NCBI RefSeq assembly: GCF_040564635.1 | Contig: NZ_CP159837.1 | Location: forward strand, 685,001-749,000 | Length of the DNA stretch: 64,000 nt | Source: Planktothricoides raciborskii GIHE-MW2 | Lineage (GTDB): Bacteria > Cyanobacteriota > Cyanobacteriia > Cyanobacteriales > Laspinemataceae | Reading direction: 5' to 3' | Notes under the pieces: generated by a model | Seen by the model: the letters and a program-made list of their open reading frames with translations, nothing else | Databases searched by the model: none | Told to the model about the DNA's origin: nothing | Program-made: the position numbers and the translations under genes | Part shown: positions 5,437 to 14,708 of the stretch, one piece after another | Numbering within the stretch: the stretch's first letter is position 1 | Layout: each line of letters begins with the position of its first letter

Positions 5437-6519
5437 TTATCCAGCAATCACTGAAGCATGGGGACGAGCAAAAATCATCCGACCGGCAGAAGTTTGTAAA
5501 GCTGATGTCACCACCACTCGCATCATCGCACCGATATGAGTTTCCGCTTCTTCCACCACCACCATCGTGCCATCTTCTAAATAGCCGACCCCTTGGGCAG
5601 CTTCTTTCCCTTCCTTGAGAATTTTTAACTCTAAAGTATCTCCAGGCAGATACACTGGACGCACCGCTTGAGTCAAGTCATTAATATTCAAGACCGGCAC
5701 CTTTTGTAAAGCGGCTACTTTGCTCAAGTTGTAGTCATTGGTTAACAAAATGGCATTAATTTCTTGAGCTAAACGCACCAACTTAGCATCCACCGTATGA
5801 ATATCTTCGTAGTCAGCAGGGTGAATCACAATGCGATCGGGGTAATTTTCCTGCATTTGATTCAGAATATCCAATCCTCTGCGGCCACGAACTCGTTTTT
5901 GATCGTTGGAGGCATCCGCGACTAACTGCAATTCTTGTAAAACAAATTGGGGAACGAGAATTTGCCCTTCCAGAAACCCAGTTTCCAGCAAAGATTCTAC
6001 CCGACCATCAATAATACAGCTTGTATCCAAAATTTTGGTTTGGGCGGGTTTCAAGGTGCCTTCGGCGACTAACATCATTTCGACGGAATTGGGATTAATC
6101 AGTCTTAAGAAAGCCCGACCGTGGCTGTCAGCGAGGGAAACCCCGGTAAAAGCAAAGAGGATACTGCCTAAAACGGCGGTCAGGGGTTTAATAAAGCCAA
6201 ATTCTCCGGGAATGGGCAGTAAAAACAGGGGGGCTAACATTAAGTTGGCCACCAGAAGTCCGATCACTAAACCGATCGCCCGCGTGATCAGCATATCAAT
6301 GGGCATATGGCGGACTTTGACTTCCAGCCGTCGGTAGTTAATTTGCATAAATAAACCGACGCCAAATCCAATTAAAGCGCCAAATCCAGCGGTTACAGAT
6401 CGCAACCCTTCCAGACTTGTCACTTGATTAGTAGCACTACTGGGCAGCATATCGATTCCGTAAAAACCGATGCCCACCCCTGTTAAGATGAATGAGATCA
6501 CGATAATTGCATCAAGCAT
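5437..6519 (-). CDS. PIN-TRAM domain membrane protein (YacL-like)
   Basis: A 360-residue protein with about four membrane segments in the first 130 residues, a PIN ribonuclease-like domain (about 160-285, acidic residues in KILDTSCIIDGR, DAKLVRLA and LTNDYNL) and a C-terminal TRAM domain (about 290-350, GVGYLEDGTMVVVEEA). This is the architecture of Bacillus YacL and its cyanobacterial orthologues. PIN domains usually cleave RNA and TRAM binds RNA, so a membrane-tethered RNA-processing role is likely, but the substrate is unknown. Divergent from hemW, with a 266-bp shared upstream region. Confidence 0.9.
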   Translation of the reverse strand: MLDAIIVISFILTGVGIGFYGIDMLPSSATNQVTSLEGLRSVTAGFGALIGFGVGLFMQINYRRLEVKVRHMPIDMLITRAIGLVIGLLVANLMLAPLFLLPIPGEFGFIKPLTAVLGSILFAFTGVSLADSHGRAFLRLINPNSVEMMLVAEGTLKPAQTKILDTSCIIDGRVESLLETGFLEGQILVPQFVLQELQLVADASNDQKRVRGRRGLDILNQMQENYPDRIVIHPADYEDIHTVDAKLVRLAQEINAILLTNDYNLSKVAALQKVPVLNINDLTQAVRPVYLPGDTLELKILKEGKEAAQGVGYLEDGTMVVVEEAETHIGAMMRVVVTSALQTSAGRMIFARPHASVIAG

Positions 6520-6785: not shown

Positions 6786-8024
6786 ATGAATTTCAATGAG
6801 AATGAGCAACCGAAATCCGTTTATATTCACATACCCTTTTGTCGTCGTCGCTGCTTTTATTGTGATTTTCCGATCTTTGTCATCGGCGATCGCCAACAAG
6901 GGGAGAATTCTAGCACGATCCAGAAATATATAGAAACGTTGATTCAAGAGATCGAGATGACTCCCGGTGGCGGTCAACCCTTGGAAACAGTTTTTTTTGG
7001 CGGGGGTACTCCTTCTCTGCTTTCAGTTCATCAGTTAAACCAAATTATGGAAATTCTCGATCGCCGGTTTGGTATCAGCGCCAGTCCAGAAATCTCCATC
7101 GAAATGGATCCAGGAACCTTTGACTTAGAAAAGTTGTATGGTTACGTCCAAGGGGGAATTAATCGCGTTAGTTTAGGCATCCAAGCATTTCAAGACGAAT
7201 TACTAAGTATGTGTGGGCGATCGCACAGTTCTAAAGACATTTTTACAGCCATCGACCTGCTGTACCAAGTAGGGGTTTCCGACTTCAGCATCGATCTGAT
7301 CTCTGGACTGCCCCATCAAACCCTAGATCAATGGCAAAACTCCCTAGAAACCGCCGTCATGCTGACACCTAGCCACATTTCTAGTTACGACTTAATCATC
7401 GAACCAGGGACGGCTTTTCATCGCTACTACAAGCCTGGAGTTCCTCCCTTTCCCGACGATCAAAGCACTGCGGATATGTACCGTCTAGCGGTGCAAATTT
7501 TAACCGATGCGGGTTATCAACACTATGAAGTCTCCAACTATGCCTTCCCCGGACATCAATGTCGGCATAATCGAGTTTATTGGGAAAACCTGCCTTACTA
7601 CGGTTTTGGCATGGGTGCCACCAGCTATGTCCAAGGACAAAGGTTTACCAGACCCCGGAAAATCGCTGAATATTACCAATGGGTCGAACAATCGATCGCC
7701 GCAGGGGGAAAAATTGATTGCCCAAAAACTCTGGAAAGCGAACGCTTGCTAGAAACTATCATGCTGGGATTGCGTTTAACTGATGGCATAAATTGTGCCA
7801 CCCTGGTCGAACGGTTTGGTGACAATGTACTTCAGCGAATTTGGCCAAGTTTACACCAATACCACCGTCAAGGATGGGTAGAAATCCTCACCTCTGAAGG
7901 AATACCGATCCCCTTATCCCCGGAATCCCCATTACCCCCAAGCAGTCGCATCCGACTCACGGATCCCGAAGGATTTTTATTCTCCAATACGATTTTGGCG
8001 ACCCTGTTTCAACAACTAGAATAA
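6786..8024 (+). CDS. hemW: HemW-like radical SAM heme chaperone
   Basis: A 412-residue radical SAM protein of the HemN/HemW family. The Fe-S cluster motif is C19-x3-C23-x2-C26 in PFCRRRCFYCDF; FFGGGTPSLL and MDPGTFD are SAM-binding elements; the C-terminal HemN domain is present (LGLRLTDGI). It has the CxxxCxxC arrangement of the family but lacks the N-terminal extension of true coproporphyrinogen dehydrogenase HemN, which favours HemW, a protein that binds heme and passes it to apo-proteins. Single gene; no terminator is obvious. Confidence 0.88.
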   Translation: MNFNENEQPKSVYIHIPFCRRRCFYCDFPIFVIGDRQQGENSSTIQKYIETLIQEIEMTPGGGQPLETVFFGGGTPSLLSVHQLNQIMEILDRRFGISASPEISIEMDPGTFDLEKLYGYVQGGINRVSLGIQAFQDELLSMCGRSHSSKDIFTAIDLLYQVGVSDFSIDLISGLPHQTLDQWQNSLETAVMLTPSHISSYDLIIEPGTAFHRYYKPGVPPFPDDQSTADMYRLAVQILTDAGYQHYEVSNYAFPGHQCRHNRVYWENLPYYGFGMGATSYVQGQRFTRPRKIAEYYQWVEQSIAAGGKIDCPKTLESERLLETIMLGLRLTDGINCATLVERFGDNVLQRIWPSLHQYHRQGWVEILTSEGIPIPLSPESPLPPSSRIRLTDPEGFLFSNTILATLFQQLE

Positions 8025-8289
8025 TCAGGGGCGATCGGCGTGACTCAACTTACAGAAAATAAATGATTTCGATCGCCATAAAACGGTGATTTCACCATTG
8101 GCGATCGAGGTGAAATTGACCCGCTGGCCTGCTTGTGTAAACTTTTCTTAAAGTTGACCCAAATTTAAGGGTTTTTTGTAAAGATTTGCGAATTACTGCA
8201 TCCACCCGACCGGACTCACCCGATCCATTGAATACAATAAAAGAAGTCACTAAAAGAAGTCACTTTTTGATTGTTAAGGAGGGGGGAAG

Positions 8290-10059
8290 ATGGTGGACTT
8301 TACCGTAGCAATTCCGACTTATAACGGCGAAACTCGATTACCTGATGTACTGGAACGACTGCGATCGCAAGTTGAGACTGAATCATTTACCTGGGAAATT
8401 TTAGTCATTGATAACAACAGCTGCGATCGCACCGCTCAGGTAATTCGCGAATATCAAACCCAGTGGCCTTCATGGTGCCCATTAATCTATTACTTTTGTC
8501 CCGAACAAGGGGCAGCATTTGCACGCCAAAAAGCCGTAGAAAAAGCCAAAGGAAAACTCATCGGATTTCTCGATGATGATAATCTACCGGAAAAAAACTG
8601 GGTAGCTGCTGCTTATGAATTCGGCCAAAACCATCCCCAACTTGGCGCTTATGGCAGCCAAATTCATGGGTATTTTTTTGAAGCCAATACCCCAGAAGAA
8701 ATGCCGAAAAATTTTAAAGAAATTGCTAGTTTTTTAGCCATTGTCGAAAGAGGAAATACACCCCATTTATATAATCTATACCATAAAATACTACCCCCAG
8801 GGGCAGGGTTAGTGGTAAGAAAAGATGTTTGGTTAAAAAGCGTACCCAATCGGTTATTTTTAAATCATCAAGGCAAAGAAGCTGGTATGGCCAGTGAAGA
8901 TTTAGAAGCGTTATTGCATATTCAAAAAGCCGGGTGGGAAATTTGGTATAACCCAGAAATGATTGTATATCATAAAATTCCTAATAATCGCTTAAAAGCC
9001 GATTATTTACGGCTACTTACTCGCTGTGTCGGCTTAAGCAGACATAGACTACGTATGATGACCCTAGAAACTTGGCAAATACCTTTAGCCTTTCCTGCAT
9101 ATTTGGCTAACGATCTGCGTCGATTAGTTCTTCATTTAATTAAACATGGTCTGAACGTAAAAAAAGATCCCGTTGCGGCCTCCCAAAGAGAATTTCTCGT
9201 CAGTACCCTGGTGAGTCCTTTATTTTTATGGAAGAAAAAACAGAGCAAAAAGATTCCCAGGGAAATCTTCAGTCAATCTTTACAAAAAACCGAACAAATT
9301 CTCAATCAAATTGCTCAAGGATTTGAACAAGATCGCTTTTGTCTTTATGCTCAAGAAATTCAGCCGATTAGCCCCTTTAATTCCTCAAACCAACATACAG
9401 AAATTCTCTTAAGACTAAAAGACGAACTCGATCGCATTCTCCTGCCGAGTGAATTTATGCCGATCGCCCAACATTATAAATTGATGCCCACCATTGACCG
9501 CTGGGTCGTTCGCCAAATTTTTAGGGAAATTGCCGGGGAAAGTCTCGACCCCAGTTTATCTTTATATGAAATCAATGTTTCCATAGAAACGGTGAAAGAT
9601 CCTAATTTTATCAATTTTCTTCACCGTGAATTTAGAGAGTATGAAATTACGCCAGAAATGATATCCTTTGCGATTTCAGAAACTTGTGCGATTGCTAATT
9701 TAGAAACAATAATTAAATTTATTAACTACATCAAAAAAATCGGCAGTCAACTCACCTTAGATCATGTGGGCAGGGGAAATATTTCTCCTAAATATATCAA
9801 AAAAATGCCAGTAGATTACTTGAAAATTGATGGTAAATTCTTCAGCCAGCGGGCGTCAAATCGGCCAAGCATTGATAAAATTTATCAGATCAATGATTTA
9901 GGTCATCAACTTGGCATGAAAACAATTGCCGAAGCCGTAGAAAACCAAGAAATTTTTGAACAAATGAAATCCATAGGAGTCGATTACGTCCAAGGGTATG
10001 GCATTGCCCCAACCCACCCCTTAATCACTTACAGTCATCGGCAATCTCTCCTCAGTTAG
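8290..10059 (+). CDS. HpsE-like glycosyltransferase fused to a divergent EAL domain
   Basis: A 589-residue two-domain protein. Residues 1 to about 240 form a GT2 glycosyltransferase (VAIPTYNGETRLPDVL, DDDN at 95-98, a SEDLE motif near 202-206) most like HpsE of hormogonium polysaccharide synthesis. Residues about 340-589 form an EAL domain (cyclic-di-GMP phosphodiesterase fold): E371 in TEILLR, N429 in EINVS, E464 in SETC, D491, K512 in LKIDG, E548 in AEAVE and Q568 in VQGYG. The second Asp of the usual DDFG is His492 (DHVG) and loop 6 is degenerate, so it may sense rather than cleave c-di-GMP. A strong AAGGAGGGG ribosome-binding site precedes ATG 8290. Domain identity is firm; the regulatory role is inference. 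Confidence 0.85.
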   Translation: MVDFTVAIPTYNGETRLPDVLERLRSQVETESFTWEILVIDNNSCDRTAQVIREYQTQWPSWCPLIYYFCPEQGAAFARQKAVEKAKGKLIGFLDDDNLPEKNWVAAAYEFGQNHPQLGAYGSQIHGYFFEANTPEEMPKNFKEIASFLAIVERGNTPHLYNLYHKILPPGAGLVVRKDVWLKSVPNRLFLNHQGKEAGMASEDLEALLHIQKAGWEIWYNPEMIVYHKIPNNRLKADYLRLLTRCVGLSRHRLRMMTLETWQIPLAFPAYLANDLRRLVLHLIKHGLNVKKDPVAASQREFLVSTLVSPLFLWKKKQSKKIPREIFSQSLQKTEQILNQIAQGFEQDRFCLYAQEIQPISPFNSSNQHTEILLRLKDELDRILLPSEFMPIAQHYKLMPTIDRWVVRQIFREIAGESLDPSLSLYEINVSIETVKDPNFINFLHREFREYEITPEMISFAISETCAIANLETIIKFINYIKKIGSQLTLDHVGRGNISPKYIKKMPVDYLKIDGKFFSQRASNRPSIDKIYQINDLGHQLGMKTIAEAVENQEIFEQMKSIGVDYVQGYGIAPTHPLITYSHRQSLLS

Positions 10060-10103: not shown

Positions 10104-10216
10104 TTGCTTTGGGTTGCTTTGGGTTGCTTTGGGTTGGTTTGGGTTGGTTTGGGTTGGTTTGGGTTGGTTTGGTTTGGTTTGGTTTGGTTTGGGTTGGTTT
10201 GGGTTGCTTTGGGTTT
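10104..10216 (+). repeat. G-rich decamer array (GGGTTGGTTT/GGGTTGCTTT)
   Basis: About eleven head-to-tail decamers: GGGTTGCTTT at both ends, GGGTTGGTTT in the middle, and a central stretch collapsed to the pentamer GGTTT. All G runs are on the plus strand, so the transcript upstream of the RRM gene could form stacked G structures. The rest of the 10060-10419 spacer presumably carries the long 5' leader and promoter of the RRM gene. Confidence 0.95.
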
Positions 10217-10419: not shown

Positions 10420-10764
10420 ATGTCTATTTACGTTGGTAATCTTTCATACCAAGTTACCCAAGACGACTTGAATGAGGTTTTTGCTGAATATGGAACCGTT
10501 AAGCGAGTTCAACTCCCCACGGATCGTGAGACTGGAAAGATGCGGGGTTTTGGATTTGTCGAATTGGACACCGAAGCGCAAGAACAAGCCGCCATTGATG
10601 CCCTCGATGGTGCCGAGTGGATGGGTCGTGATATTAAAGTCAACAAAGCCAAGCCTCGGGAAAGTGGGGGAAATCGGGGTGGCAGCTTCAAAGGCGGCGG
10701 CAACGGCGGCGGCGGCGGTCGTCGTGGTGGCGGCGGCGGCGGCTACAATCGTAACCGCTTCTAA
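10420..10764 (+). CDS. glycine-rich RRM RNA-binding protein
   Basis: A 114-residue protein with one RNA-recognition motif (residues 1-80: RNP2 IYVGNL, RNP1 RGFGFVEL) and a glycine/arginine-rich tail ending GGYNRNRF. This is the cyanobacterial Rbp family, small RNA-binding proteins that are often cold-inducible and, in Synechocystis, help place photosynthesis mRNAs at the membrane. GGAGAGG lies just upstream of the ATG. A canonical terminator follows at 10821-10848, so it is a single-gene unit. Confidence 0.95.
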   Translation: MSIYVGNLSYQVTQDDLNEVFAEYGTVKRVQLPTDRETGKMRGFGFVELDTEAQEQAAIDALDGAEWMGRDIKVNKAKPRESGGNRGGSFKGGGNGGGGGRRGGGGGGYNRNRF

Positions 10765-10936: not shown

Positions 10937-11830
10937 TTATTGTTCGCCGGTAATACTCCAGGCGCCATCCCAATCATCAGCGGGAGGATTTTTGATCAAC
11001 TTTTGGCACCGTTGCAACAGCAACCCAGCCGCTTGATCGTGGGCATTTATTTTTCTAACTCTGGCAAACTCACCCATCGCATTGGCAAACTGACGGTTCA
11101 AATAAAACTCACGACCTTTATGATACAGTTCGAGAATCTGCTCCTGATCCGAAGACAAGGGGTCAGAACGTAGTCCCAAAATTTCATAAATAGGTACTGG
11201 GGTCTTATTATTCCGCATCCGAATCACATCCAGTTCTCTCACCCAGACGCGATCGGCACATTTTTCATAAGTATTTTTACTCAGTACGATATCGCAACCA
11301 TACTGCTTACTCAGACCTTCTAAATAATAAGCAATACTGACCCCTTCACCAATGGCGGTGAATTCCATTCGTTTAGTGGAACCCTTTTGACCACTTAAAA
11401 TCAGATCGGAATTAATCCCAATGCCAATTTTAATCGCTGGTTTATTTTCCGTTTGCCGCCGCTGATTAAAATCCGCCAAACGCTTGCACATTTGCATTGC
11501 GGTTTGAACTGCCAGCCATGCATGATTCTCCACGGCAATTGACGAACTAAACACAGCGACAATTGAATTTCTAATTCCCGCTAATTCTATTTGTTGGTCT
11601 AGATTTTGTTTATATTCATACACCGCATTAATCATTAACTGAAAATATTCATCAAGCAGATTGGCTACCTCTGATGACTCAAAATTTTGAATCAAATATT
11701 TGTAACCATAAATATCAGAAAACAAAATCGAGCATTCCTTGATTTCGCACCCCAATTTATCAGCATCAAGAGCGGTTTCTTGGGGAATGCCGGACGGGAA
11801 AACATTAACTGACTGGCTATCTACTACCAT
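10937..11830 (-). CDS. degenerate class III nucleotide cyclase-like protein
   Basis: A 297-residue protein colinear with the C-terminal 265 residues of the adjacent cyclase (11997-14708): ECSILFSDIYGY matches EVSVLFSDIRSY, and the ends NPPADDWDGAW and NPPADNWDGVW align. Catalytic residues are lost. The GDAIMAVFG segment holding the second metal-binding Asp has become RNSIVAVFS, and the NLASRLEG transition-state Asn/Arg has become SIAYYLEG; the first Asp (SDI) and the KRME base-contact Lys remain. It has no GAF or PAS domains. Probably a pseudo-cyclase that arose by partial tandem duplication and may pair with or regulate the upstream enzyme. About 165 bp separates it from that gene. Confidence 0.85.
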   Translation of the reverse strand: MVVDSQSVNVFPSGIPQETALDADKLGCEIKECSILFSDIYGYKYLIQNFESSEVANLLDEYFQLMINAVYEYKQNLDQQIELAGIRNSIVAVFSSSIAVENHAWLAVQTAMQMCKRLADFNQRRQTENKPAIKIGIGINSDLILSGQKGSTKRMEFTAIGEGVSIAYYLEGLSKQYGCDIVLSKNTYEKCADRVWVRELDVIRMRNNKTPVPIYEILGLRSDPLSSDQEQILELYHKGREFYLNRQFANAMGEFARVRKINAHDQAAGLLLQRCQKLIKNPPADDWDGAWSITGEQ

Positions 11831-11996: not shown

Positions 11997-14708
11997 CTAT
12001 TTTTCTGTGAGCTTCCAAACACCATCCCAGTTGTCTGCGGGCGGATTTTCGATGAAATGTAAACACCGATCGATATGCAAATTGGCGGCTTTGTTATCTT
12101 TATCAATTTCAATCACTTTACCAAACCTAGACATTGCCAGTTCAAACTCGCGATTTAGGTAATATTCGCGACCTTGGTGGTAAGCGTCGATCAACTCCTT
12201 CTGTTTTGGATCGATTTCTTGCGCCAGAGGGCCATCTTTAAGGCCGACTAACTCATAAATTCTCACTGGCTCAGTTTTACCTTTAACCGTAATAAAGTCG
12301 AGTTCCCGAACCCAAACACGATCTTTACAGGCTTCGTAAGTTTTTTCACTGATCACGATCACGCAGCCGTACATTTTGCTGGTGCCTTCCAAACGAGAGG
12401 CTAAGTTTACCCCGTCCCCAATGGAGGTTAATTCCATCCGTTTGCTGGAGCCAATATTACCACTGACCACGGCATCGGAATGAAGCCCAATGCCAATAGA
12501 GAGAGTTTTCTTCCCTTCCGCTTGGCGCTTTTTGTTAAACACTTTTAAGCGTTGTCCCATTTCCACAGCGGTTTGCACCGCACACCATTCGTGGTCAGCC
12601 AAGGGTAACGGGGAACCAAACACGGCCATAATTGCGTCCCCAATGTATTTGTCCAGGGTGCCTTTGTATTTAAAGACCGCATCCACCATTGACTCAAAAT
12701 ACTCGTTGAGCATGGCCACCACTTCTTCCGGTTCCATCCCTTCTGTGAGAGTGGTGTAGCTGCGAATATCCGAGAACAGCACCGAGACTTCTTTCTTCTT
12801 GCCACCCAGACCCGTATCGCCACTTTGGAGTAATGCTTCGGCCACTTCCTGGGTCATGTAACGATACATGGTACTCTTGAGCCGTTTTTCATCACTGATG
12901 TCATCCATGACCACCAGAGCCCCATAGACATTTGTGGGATCTTTGGCGTCGGAGATCGAATTAATGGACAAATTAATACTATGCTCTTCCTCTGAATTAT
13001 GGGAGAGCAGGGTTTGTTCGGGATAGTATTGATTGCGGGCTTTTTCGTCTGTCCCCGCCAAAGCTTGTTCAAACCATTTGGCAAACTGATCTTCTTGTTG
13101 CAGCTTGACGACGTTGCAGATGTGCTGCTCTTCTAAGCGATCGTCTTTGCCAAAACCAAGCAATTGTTTAGCGGTTTGATTGGCAGCAATAATAATTCCA
13201 TTTTTATTGGTAGAAATCACCCCATTGCTGAGACTGCGGAGAATATCCCGTTGCAGTTGTTCTTGTTGTCTAACGGTGGCAAATAGTTTGGCATTTTGCA
13301 ACGCCACCCCTGCTTGGGTGTTAAACGCTTCCATGAATTCCTGGTCAGAACGACTAAAAGACGCTTTCCAGAATTCTGGCGCTTCCGGCCAAGTGGTCGG
13401 ATCGTACGGAGGATGTTCGTTATATTTCTTTTTGTTCACCAATTGAGTTACGCCAATCAACTCGCCATCGGAGTTAAATACTGGCATACAGAGTAAGCTG
13501 CACGTCCGATATTTAGTTTTTTGGTCGGTTTGTTTGGAGGTTTCTGACCCAGGATGGGCATATAAGTCAAAGGAAATGTTCAAAGGCTTGCCGGACGTGG
13601 CCACTTGACCAGCAAAACCAGCATTTCGGGGAATCCTAACTTCTTGTATTACTCCATCGATAGGGATTTTTGTCCAGAGCTCATTTTTTTCTTCGTCGAT
13701 CAACCAGAGGGTTGAGCGATCGGCGTTCATCAGCTTTTTGGCTTCATCCATGACCCGTTTCAGGGTATCTTCCAGGTCTAAGCTACTCTTACTCAGAGAT
13801 TGAGTTGCCGACATCAGGGCAGCGGCAGCCCGTTGCCGCTGCGAGGCTTTGCGGAAAGACCGAGAAGATTCCAGGATCATCAATACCGATGGGGCGAATT
13901 CTTGGAAAACTTTCTCATCTTCTTCGGTAAAGCCTCTGGTATCGATGCGATCGCTTAGTGGCTGTTCGGGATCGTGAACTTTTTTTAACTTGTTCATCAA
14001 CTGCACCACAGCCACCAACTCCTCCGGTTTGTTGTCCTCTTGTTTTTTTAACAAGGGCATACAGAGCATGGTGTAGGTGCGGTATTTAGTCTGTTTGTAG
14101 GTTTTTTTGGATTGCGCCGATCGCGCATCATCAAAAAAGTCAAAGGGTATATTCACCACTTTCTTAAAGGTGGCCACTTCCCCGGCAATCCCTTGATCTG
14201 CCGGAATGCGAATCTCTAAGGAGTCTCCCGTGTCTCCTTTGGCGACAATTGACCAGAGTTCGTTTTTATCTTCATCTAATAAAAAAATCGTGGTGCGATC
14301 TGCTCCGAGTAATTCCCCTGTTTTTAAGGTGATGGAACGCAACATTTCATTCAGTATGGAGTCAAACCCCTGGGCGTCTAAGAGACTGTCCAACATGGAC
14401 AGGGTTTGATTCACCACCTCTAGTTTTGTCTCAACGTCGCTGACAACTTGTTTAAAGTTTTCTTTGTTCAGAGGGGCGAGAAACGACTTAAAGGTTCCCT
14501 GGGTAGTTACTAGGGCATTACTACTCGTAGGTGCAGCTTGTTCCTCGGCAGGCTGTGCAAATGCGGGTGCTTTTTCTGATGCTGGTTTTTGCTCAATGTT
14601 TTTGCCGTCATTTTCGAGGTTGACAACAGTGGCATCAATGGTGACGGTATGTGTACTGTTTTCCATATTACTGTTGTGAATACGGCGATTCGGAGATGCA
14701 TCTGTCAT
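11997..14708 (-). CDS. GAF-GAF-PAS class III adenylate cyclase (CyaB type)
   Basis: A 903-residue signalling enzyme. Order: low-complexity N-terminus (1-85); GAF-A (about 110-280) and GAF-B (about 310-480), each with the NKxnxF-like segments of cyclic-nucleotide-binding GAFs; PAS (about 490-610); class III cyclase domain (about 640-810); and a C-terminal TPR-like segment ending WDGVWKLTEK. Catalytic parts are intact: metal Asp in SDIRSY and GDAIMAVFG, Lys in SSKRMELT, and Asn/Arg in NLASRLEG. This is the CyaB1/CyaB2 plan of Anabaena, whose GAF domains bind cAMP. It is first of a tandem pair on the minus strand. Confidence 0.93.
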   Translation of the reverse strand: MTDASPNRRIHNSNMENSTHTVTIDATVVNLENDGKNIEQKPASEKAPAFAQPAEEQAAPTSSNALVTTQGTFKSFLAPLNKENFKQVVSDVETKLEVVNQTLSMLDSLLDAQGFDSILNEMLRSITLKTGELLGADRTTIFLLDEDKNELWSIVAKGDTGDSLEIRIPADQGIAGEVATFKKVVNIPFDFFDDARSAQSKKTYKQTKYRTYTMLCMPLLKKQEDNKPEELVAVVQLMNKLKKVHDPEQPLSDRIDTRGFTEEDEKVFQEFAPSVLMILESSRSFRKASQRQRAAAALMSATQSLSKSSLDLEDTLKRVMDEAKKLMNADRSTLWLIDEEKNELWTKIPIDGVIQEVRIPRNAGFAGQVATSGKPLNISFDLYAHPGSETSKQTDQKTKYRTCSLLCMPVFNSDGELIGVTQLVNKKKYNEHPPYDPTTWPEAPEFWKASFSRSDQEFMEAFNTQAGVALQNAKLFATVRQQEQLQRDILRSLSNGVISTNKNGIIIAANQTAKQLLGFGKDDRLEEQHICNVVKLQQEDQFAKWFEQALAGTDEKARNQYYPEQTLLSHNSEEEHSINLSINSISDAKDPTNVYGALVVMDDISDEKRLKSTMYRYMTQEVAEALLQSGDTGLGGKKKEVSVLFSDIRSYTTLTEGMEPEEVVAMLNEYFESMVDAVFKYKGTLDKYIGDAIMAVFGSPLPLADHEWCAVQTAVEMGQRLKVFNKKRQAEGKKTLSIGIGLHSDAVVSGNIGSSKRMELTSIGDGVNLASRLEGTSKMYGCVIVISEKTYEACKDRVWVRELDFITVKGKTEPVRIYELVGLKDGPLAQEIDPKQKELIDAYHQGREYYLNREFELAMSRFGKVIEIDKDNKAANLHIDRCLHFIENPPADNWDGVWKLTEK

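Follow-up and report, generated by a model that had tools for sequence, protein, structure and literature searches.

Can a glycosyltransferase be placed under c-di-GMP control by a domain of its own polypeptide? The question is raised by a gene in the 64,000-nucleotide stretch of the Planktothricoides raciborskii GIHE-MW2 genome analyzed here (the window), which a sequence-only reading had described as a single chain joining an HpsE-like GT2 glycosyltransferase (GT) to a C-terminal EAL domain. The one-chain architecture is borne out: the gene (Table 1) is one open frame of 589 amino acids with zero internal stops, both domains of its product exceed curated profile cut-offs, and full-length fusions recur in 13 genomes, which rules out two separate genes or a sequencing or assembly artefact. 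Pfam matches a GT2 domain at residues 5-127 (82 bits) and, in the C-terminal half, an EAL domain with E = 1.6e-46, whereas the NCBIfam model NF038302 for HpsE, a hormogonium polysaccharide glycosyltransferase, reaches 451 bits (E = 1.6e-135, model positions 1-306 of 307) against a curated cut-off of 300 bits. The HpsE-like GT2 identity thus stands, but the extent first assigned to it, residues 1-240, falls short of an HpsE part that ends at about residue 312.

Table 1. Coordinates of the fusion gene, its parts and the upstream marker genes within the window.
Feature	Position	Strand	Basis
PIN/TRAM-type protein gene (presumed name)	5437..6519	-	second shared-site marker in g1, g5
HemW/HemN-like gene (presumed name), directly upstream of fusion	6786..8024	+	shared-site marker in g1, g5
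Shine-Dalgarno-like AAGGAGG ahead of fusion ATG	8276..8282	+	sequence
GT2-EAL fusion gene, 589 aa	8290..10059	+	single open frame; HpsE and EAL profile matches; AlphaFold model
HpsE-type GT2 domain, residues 2-312; D95-D97, E203-D204 present	8293..9225	+	NF038302, motif table
Variable linker, residues 313-338	9226..9303	+	16-32% identity to 11 fusions compared outside genus
Degenerate EAL domain, residues 339-574	9304..10011	+	PF00563, 159 bits; RbdA EAL fold match
Ala461 codon, position of RbdA metal-1 ligand Glu678	9670..9672	+	Glu in 86/86 non-fused EALs, 0/15 fusions
His492 codon, second Asp of DDFG	9763..9765	+	Asp in 83/86 non-fused EALs, 0/15 fusions

An AlphaFold2 model computed from a 39-row alignment (mean pLDDT 89.6, pTM 0.87, falling to pLDDT 60 at linker residues 321-330) can be read as a mixed alpha/beta N-terminal half, followed by long helices at 237-346 and then by strands that alternate with helices, as in an EAL barrel. 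The best solved Foldseek match of the model is the RbdA EAL domain (8pps; TM-score 0.90 by target length, 40% identity), followed by RbdA PAS-GGDEF-EAL structures and then by PA0575, FimX, MorA, BifA and others, with LapD at ranks 46 and 48; the best 50 rows all concern the EAL half, so that the search addresses this half of the protein. On the GT side, DDD 95-97 and ED 203-204, which we take to be the GT2 acidic motifs, are intact in 12 of the 13 fusions checked, and Asp95-97 and Asp204 are invariant among 55 non-fused GT relatives. Only the second Okeania copy (G307b, locus L069, 737-2554) deviates, reading NDD for DDD and EN for ED, and the glycosyltransferase of this duplicate may itself be dead.

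The sequence-only reading had most EAL ligand positions kept, with a single change, His492, at the second Asp of the DDFG motif. That second Asp is itself a metal-2 ligand. The closest solved structure by both sequence and fold, the EAL domain of Pseudomonas aeruginosa RbdA (PA0861), belongs to a phosphodiesterase that is active and also contains PAS and GGDEF domains, for which the accessible sections of PMC11372557 name Glu585, Asn646, Glu678 and Asp708 as metal-1 ligands, describe a movement of Asp708 and Glu765 that admits metal 2, assign Arg589 and Glu768 to the substrate and present Asp708/Asp709 as the DDFG pair, the loop of which couples dimerization to metal binding. A phmmer alignment, with positions counted by eye, places the four metal-1 ligands at E371, N429, Ala461 and D491 of the window protein, and pairs Glu765 with E548, Asp708/Asp709 with D491/His492, Arg589 with R375 and Glu768 with E551. 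The letters originally listed (E371, N429, E464, D491, His492, K512, E548 and Q568) are all correct and His492 does occupy the second Asp position, but E464 is not the metal-ligand Glu: it corresponds to RbdA residue 681, whereas Glu678, 32 residues past Asn646, falls on Ala461. The metal centre therefore lacks two conserved residues rather than one, and the DDFGxG loop is rewritten besides (LDHVGRGNISP in the window EAL), in a protein whose partner domain, unlike that of RbdA, is a GT.

Both changes recur throughout the fusions. We compared 15 fused EALs, including an identical pair from the window and the same-species genome G099, with 86 non-fused EALs (75 from 73 non-fused loci and 11 from the window's own genome, leaving out L051 and the fragment L052); as the rows are related by descent, the tallies are counts and not independent events. 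Position 461 is Ala, Gly, Ser or Cys in 15/15 fusions, position 492 is His in five, Asn in three, Lys in two and Gly in five, and Gly496 of the DDFGxG loop is found in 2/15 fusions versus 84/86 non-fused EALs. E371, R375, N429, E464, D491, K512, E551 and Q568 are present in all 15, D403 is kept in 14, position 514 is Asp in ten and Glu in five, and E548 is found in ten, being lost in all five copies of genus g5. Furthermore, the guanine-stacking position (RbdA Phe766) is Ala549 in the window and is aromatic or His in just 7/15 fusions (Ala 6, Thr 1, Gly 1, Tyr 3, His 4). By these alignments the metal centre appears broken in every fusion copy found, and since the metal-1 Glu and the second DDFG Asp are absent from 15/15 fusions, c-di-GMP hydrolysis by the fused EAL is very unlikely. 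An active phosphodiesterase is disfavored by the missing metal-centre residues, and a variant in which the EAL cuts c-di-GMP slowly or with another metal, lowering its local level at the GT, strikes us as improbable as well: although E371, N429, D491 and K512 remain and Asn takes the place of the second Asp in 3/86 non-fused EALs too, 7/15 fusions have Gly or Lys at position 492, and RbdA-type activation, according to the accessible sections of PMC11372557, proceeds through the DDFG loop, which is unconserved in the fusions. Given that the Glu678 position is lost in addition to the second Asp, the domain should be read as a putative receptor or interaction module rather than as a phosphodiesterase.

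Ligand binding without catalysis remains conceivable by analogy with two degenerate EAL receptors. P. aeruginosa FimX, as covered in part of PMC3527489, keeps four of ten catalytic residues and holds no magnesium when bound to c-di-GMP; similarly, LapD binds the dinucleotide with a degenerate site, and binding and EAL dimerization can be interdependent, as described in part of PMC3032553. The fusions share with these proteins the EAL fold, the loss of metal residues and a putative receptor logic, and they follow the same residue pattern, with degenerate metal residues, R375, K512, E551 and Q568 in 15/15 copies and a changed stacking position; indeed, the Xanthomonas FimX EAL (4foj) keeps the matching Arg, the Asp of DRW, the Lys and the Gln in a phmmer alignment. 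The FimX and LapD structures are only 20-24% identical to the window EAL in Foldseek, and they are GGDEF-EAL modules with no enzymatic output in the chain, whereas the output of the window protein would be a GT. We propose, as a reading with an even chance of being right, that the protein is an HpsE-type GT2 whose C-terminal EAL has become a non-catalytic, FimX/LapD-like c-di-GMP receptor. The EAL pocket would bind c-di-GMP without cutting it; binding, perhaps with LapD-like EAL dimerization, would shift the position or the oligomeric state of the GT; and this shift would alter the rate of sugar transfer, up or down, such that polysaccharide synthesis could track c-di-GMP with no second protein as receptor, much as in BcsA with its PilZ domain. 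The case for such binding is weakest for the five g5 copies.

The two halves of the chain are likely to have been joined once. In a tree of 101 EAL rows, RbdA itself not among them, the 15 fused EALs form a single branch (100/100) within a cyanobacterial EAL group, their neighbours being two EALs from Calotrichaceae that read DNFG (96/85), of which one belongs to a PAS-GGDEF-EAL protein. In a quick GT tree of 68 rows, computed without bootstrap and leaving out G099 and G348, 13 fused GTs likewise group together in a single branch with SH-aLRT 100, which lies among the GTs encoded by the upstream genes of tandem HpsE-type pairs. As the EAL half and the GT half each form one clade, the fusion probably happened in a single event, and several independent fusions find support in neither tree; both topologies would fit an EAL from a signalling protein having joined, once, the C-terminus of the first gene of a tandem HpsE pair. 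GT-only relatives of HpsE type mostly occupy frames of about 315-400 amino acids, whereas in the window the GT is followed by the EAL. The nearest non-fused EALs (L126, 3-2780, and L159, 5962-6768) read DNFGSS in place of the DDFGxG found elsewhere and keep the Glu at position 461, which suggests that the constraint on the second Asp may have relaxed before the fusion arose.

That the fusion extends beyond the window's genome, a matter the sequence-only reading had left to a survey, holds for 15 genes in 14 genomes of three families, 14 of them full-length (in 13 genomes) and one N-terminally broken, although the carriers are patchy. An order-level search of an even draw from the larger group, with the best three candidates scored per genome, found the fusion in 14/388 genomes. 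Searches by family gave 8/14 genomes in the window's family (3/3 in genus g1, 5/8 in genus g5), 4/61 in family f2 and 2/27 in family f19. A phylum-wide draw at E <= 1e-142 returned 1/386 genomes, namely the window's own, the other carriers evidently lying outside that draw. Carriers include Okeania sp. SIO2F4 (two genes), a Trichodesmium metagenome-assembled genome (MAG; the broken copy), a Xenococcaceae MAG, Oscillatoria sp. HE19RPO, Laspinema olomoucense and Phormidium pseudopriestleyi, and two full-length fusions lie on contigs of 7.2 and 7.7 Mb (G000 and G006). Among the matches listed, these named carriers account for 7 of 80 loci, and the remaining 73 have no GT of this type in the same frame; such similarity queries cover relatives of the window protein, GT-EAL fusions of unrelated origin being outside their scope. 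In the Trichodesmium MAG (locus L085, 5085-7944), the fusion N-terminus lies in a different frame and the HpsE gene that follows is fragmented, a state that reflects decay or MAG error.

The fused EAL is under purifying selection: across ten pairs, Nei-Gojobori omega is 0.155-0.496 for the EAL and 0.086-0.349 for the GT, with the EAL value the higher in 9/10 pairs. A chance or decaying fusion with no function, for which one could invoke its patchy occurrence and the broken Trichodesmium copy, is accordingly hard to credit, given one clade spanning three families, EAL omega below 0.5 in 10/10 pairs and the same locus in g1 and g5. More serious is the proposal that the EAL binds no nucleotide and instead, in the manner of BluF, mediates dimerization or partner binding, thereby bringing the GT into a complex for polysaccharide assembly. 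This main rival, which we regard as unlikely though by no means negligible, would account for a metal centre short of two residues, for the loss of both the DDFG loop and the stacking aromatic, for an EAL omega above that of the GT in 9/10 pairs and for the absence of E548 from the g5 copies, and the part of the BluF literature available offers a precedent for a degenerate EAL acting through a protein partner. It sits less easily with the eight core pocket residues, which are invariant in 15 fusions even though the window EAL is only 39-50% identical to the fused EALs of other genera. This retention has its own limit: eight of 11 or 12 active-site positions kept, compared with canonical EAL columns, gives hypergeometric values of 0.07 and 0.14, not beyond other canonical columns, so that fold constraint could explain it. 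Values of 0.0016 (8/8), 0.030 (8/10) and 5e-7 (against all columns), from which retention beyond expectation might have been argued, were dropped because the position sets were chosen post hoc and omitted position 461.

The genomic setting of the fusion is partly shared. In g1 (the window and G001), as in all three g5 genomes compared for synteny (G005, G006 and G007), it lies downstream of the HemW-like and PIN/TRAM-like genes, while G008, G010, G002, G003 and G004 have both marker genes with no adjoining fusion; in G012 the contig ends at the site and a whole-genome search finds the fusion absent (genome 87% complete). An intact second HpsE-type gene adjoins the fusion at 10/12 loci outside g1, the exceptions being L075 (Trichodesmium), with HpsE pieces, and L069, a 3.5-kb contig with no second HpsE. 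At the g1 loci (L078 and L082) no second HpsE is found and the fusion persists; in the window, no second match exceeds the HpsE cut-off near the fusion gene. A type I phosphodiesterase/nucleotide pyrophosphatase gene follows the fusion in G006 and G284 (Pfam) and in G005 and G007 (tblastn), the corresponding place showing no Pfam match in G232 and another kind of gene in L072 (G359). Outside g5, the Pfam scan covered two loci, and these include two more GT2 genes, a group-1 GT and a hexapeptide transferase (G232) and a sulfotransferase (G284).

In g1, two cyclase-domain genes lie downstream of the fusion, and together with the changed stacking position and the binding of pGpG by the FimX EAL, reported in part of PMC3527489, they could be taken to mean that the ligand of the EAL is not c-di-GMP but a different small nucleotide, be it pGpG, GTP or a cyclic nucleotide. 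We give this only a slim prospect, as the kept residues are those of c-di-GMP-binding EALs and a search of three g5 loci showed no cyclase genes next to the fusion.

The preferred reading, that of a c-di-GMP receptor, also has to fit the signalling repertoire of the genome. A profile search found 33 GGDEF matches, several of them fragments, and 14 EAL matches, one being a fragment and another the fusion itself; PilZ, by contrast, gave no match in the genome or in the fusion protein, with 5/14 control genomes positive. A c-di-GMP system is thus present and the PilZ route undetected. Two further loci, L051 and L061, were inspected as a possible second GT-EAL protein of this genome, and neither is one. 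There are two ComFB matches, which we take to be linked to the ComFB/CdgR c-di-GMP receptor and which offer an alternative receptor, a point against the receptor reading. Three HpsE matches exceed the cut-off, two of them forming a separate tandem pair near 6.50 Mb; since the genome keeps this pair, the window copy is an extra HpsE.

Taken together, the receptor reading draws on intact GT motifs, on the loss of the metal-1 Glu, the second Asp and the DDFG loop alongside eight kept pocket residues, on single clades and purifying selection, and furthermore on the polysaccharide-type neighbours in G232 and G284, on a genome rich in GGDEF and EAL but free of PilZ matches, and on a g1 fusion that lacks an HpsE partner. 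Against it count Ala549 at the stacking position, the g5 loss of E548, pocket retention that does not exceed fold conservation and the higher omega of the EAL. The HpsE-type GT, the neighbours in the two relatives' loci, the conserved non-catalytic pocket and the missing PilZ match also make the direct coupling of polysaccharide synthesis to c-di-GMP, as first suggested, a reasonable inference, whereas the accompanying link to gliding draws only on the HpsE name. More tentatively, at somewhat less than an even chance, these proteins may constitute a new, directly c-di-GMP-gated class of HpsE-type GT2, in which an EAL that lost its catalytic metal centre acts as an allosteric c-di-GMP switch; the class would have arisen once in cyanobacteria, occurs in a genome with no PilZ match and was kept in g1 without an HpsE partner.

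The order GT then EAL had been called unusual, and we found no report of a GT-EAL protein in the open literature of the PMC library, subscription papers and preprints lying beyond its reach; the word "glycosyltransferase" does not occur in the available part of a c-di-GMP receptor review (PMC10519070). The cyanobacterial c-di-GMP receptors named in the excerpts at hand are a PilZ-bearing cellulose synthase and CdgR. GT2 enzymes with their own C-terminal c-di-GMP-binding domain are already known from the cellulose synthase BcsA (GT2 and PilZ) and from BgsA, at least in the parts of the literature covered, and an EAL version would be new if binding is confirmed. BcsA reportedly carries its PilZ domain C-terminal to the GT2, and HpsE is not known to be a membrane-embedded processive synthase; as the receptor domain of BcsA and BgsA is unrelated to EAL and the window protein has no PilZ, the comparison concerns the way of working only. 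If the proposal holds, joining a degenerate EAL to a GT would allow a glycosyltransferase to be gated without PilZ, and with sensor and enzyme sharing a polypeptide, binding and transfer could be measured on a single protein. Such a fusion would, moreover, illustrate clearly how a phosphodiesterase domain can turn into a receptor, every known copy lacking two residues of the metal centre but keeping most of the remaining pocket.

Finally, the region downstream of the fusion has features of its own. On the minus strand, 11997-14708 encodes a GAF/PAS class III cyclase, and the adjoining 10937-11830 a 297-amino-acid cyclase-domain protein that is about 48% identical to the cyclase C-terminus, as measured on the G001 copies. 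The GDAIMAVF stretch of the cyclase, which presumably bears a metal-binding Asp, reads RNSIVAVF in the smaller protein, which is probably a duplicated pseudo-cyclase. Around the fusion, promoter-like matches are fewer than in shuffled sequence (3 versus 5.7) and terminator-like matches more numerous (7 versus 3.0), coding region included. Between the fusion and a small gene at 10420, to which we give the provisional name RRM-like, lie 11.2 copies of a 10-bp TTGGTTTGGG tandem repeat (10104-10215).
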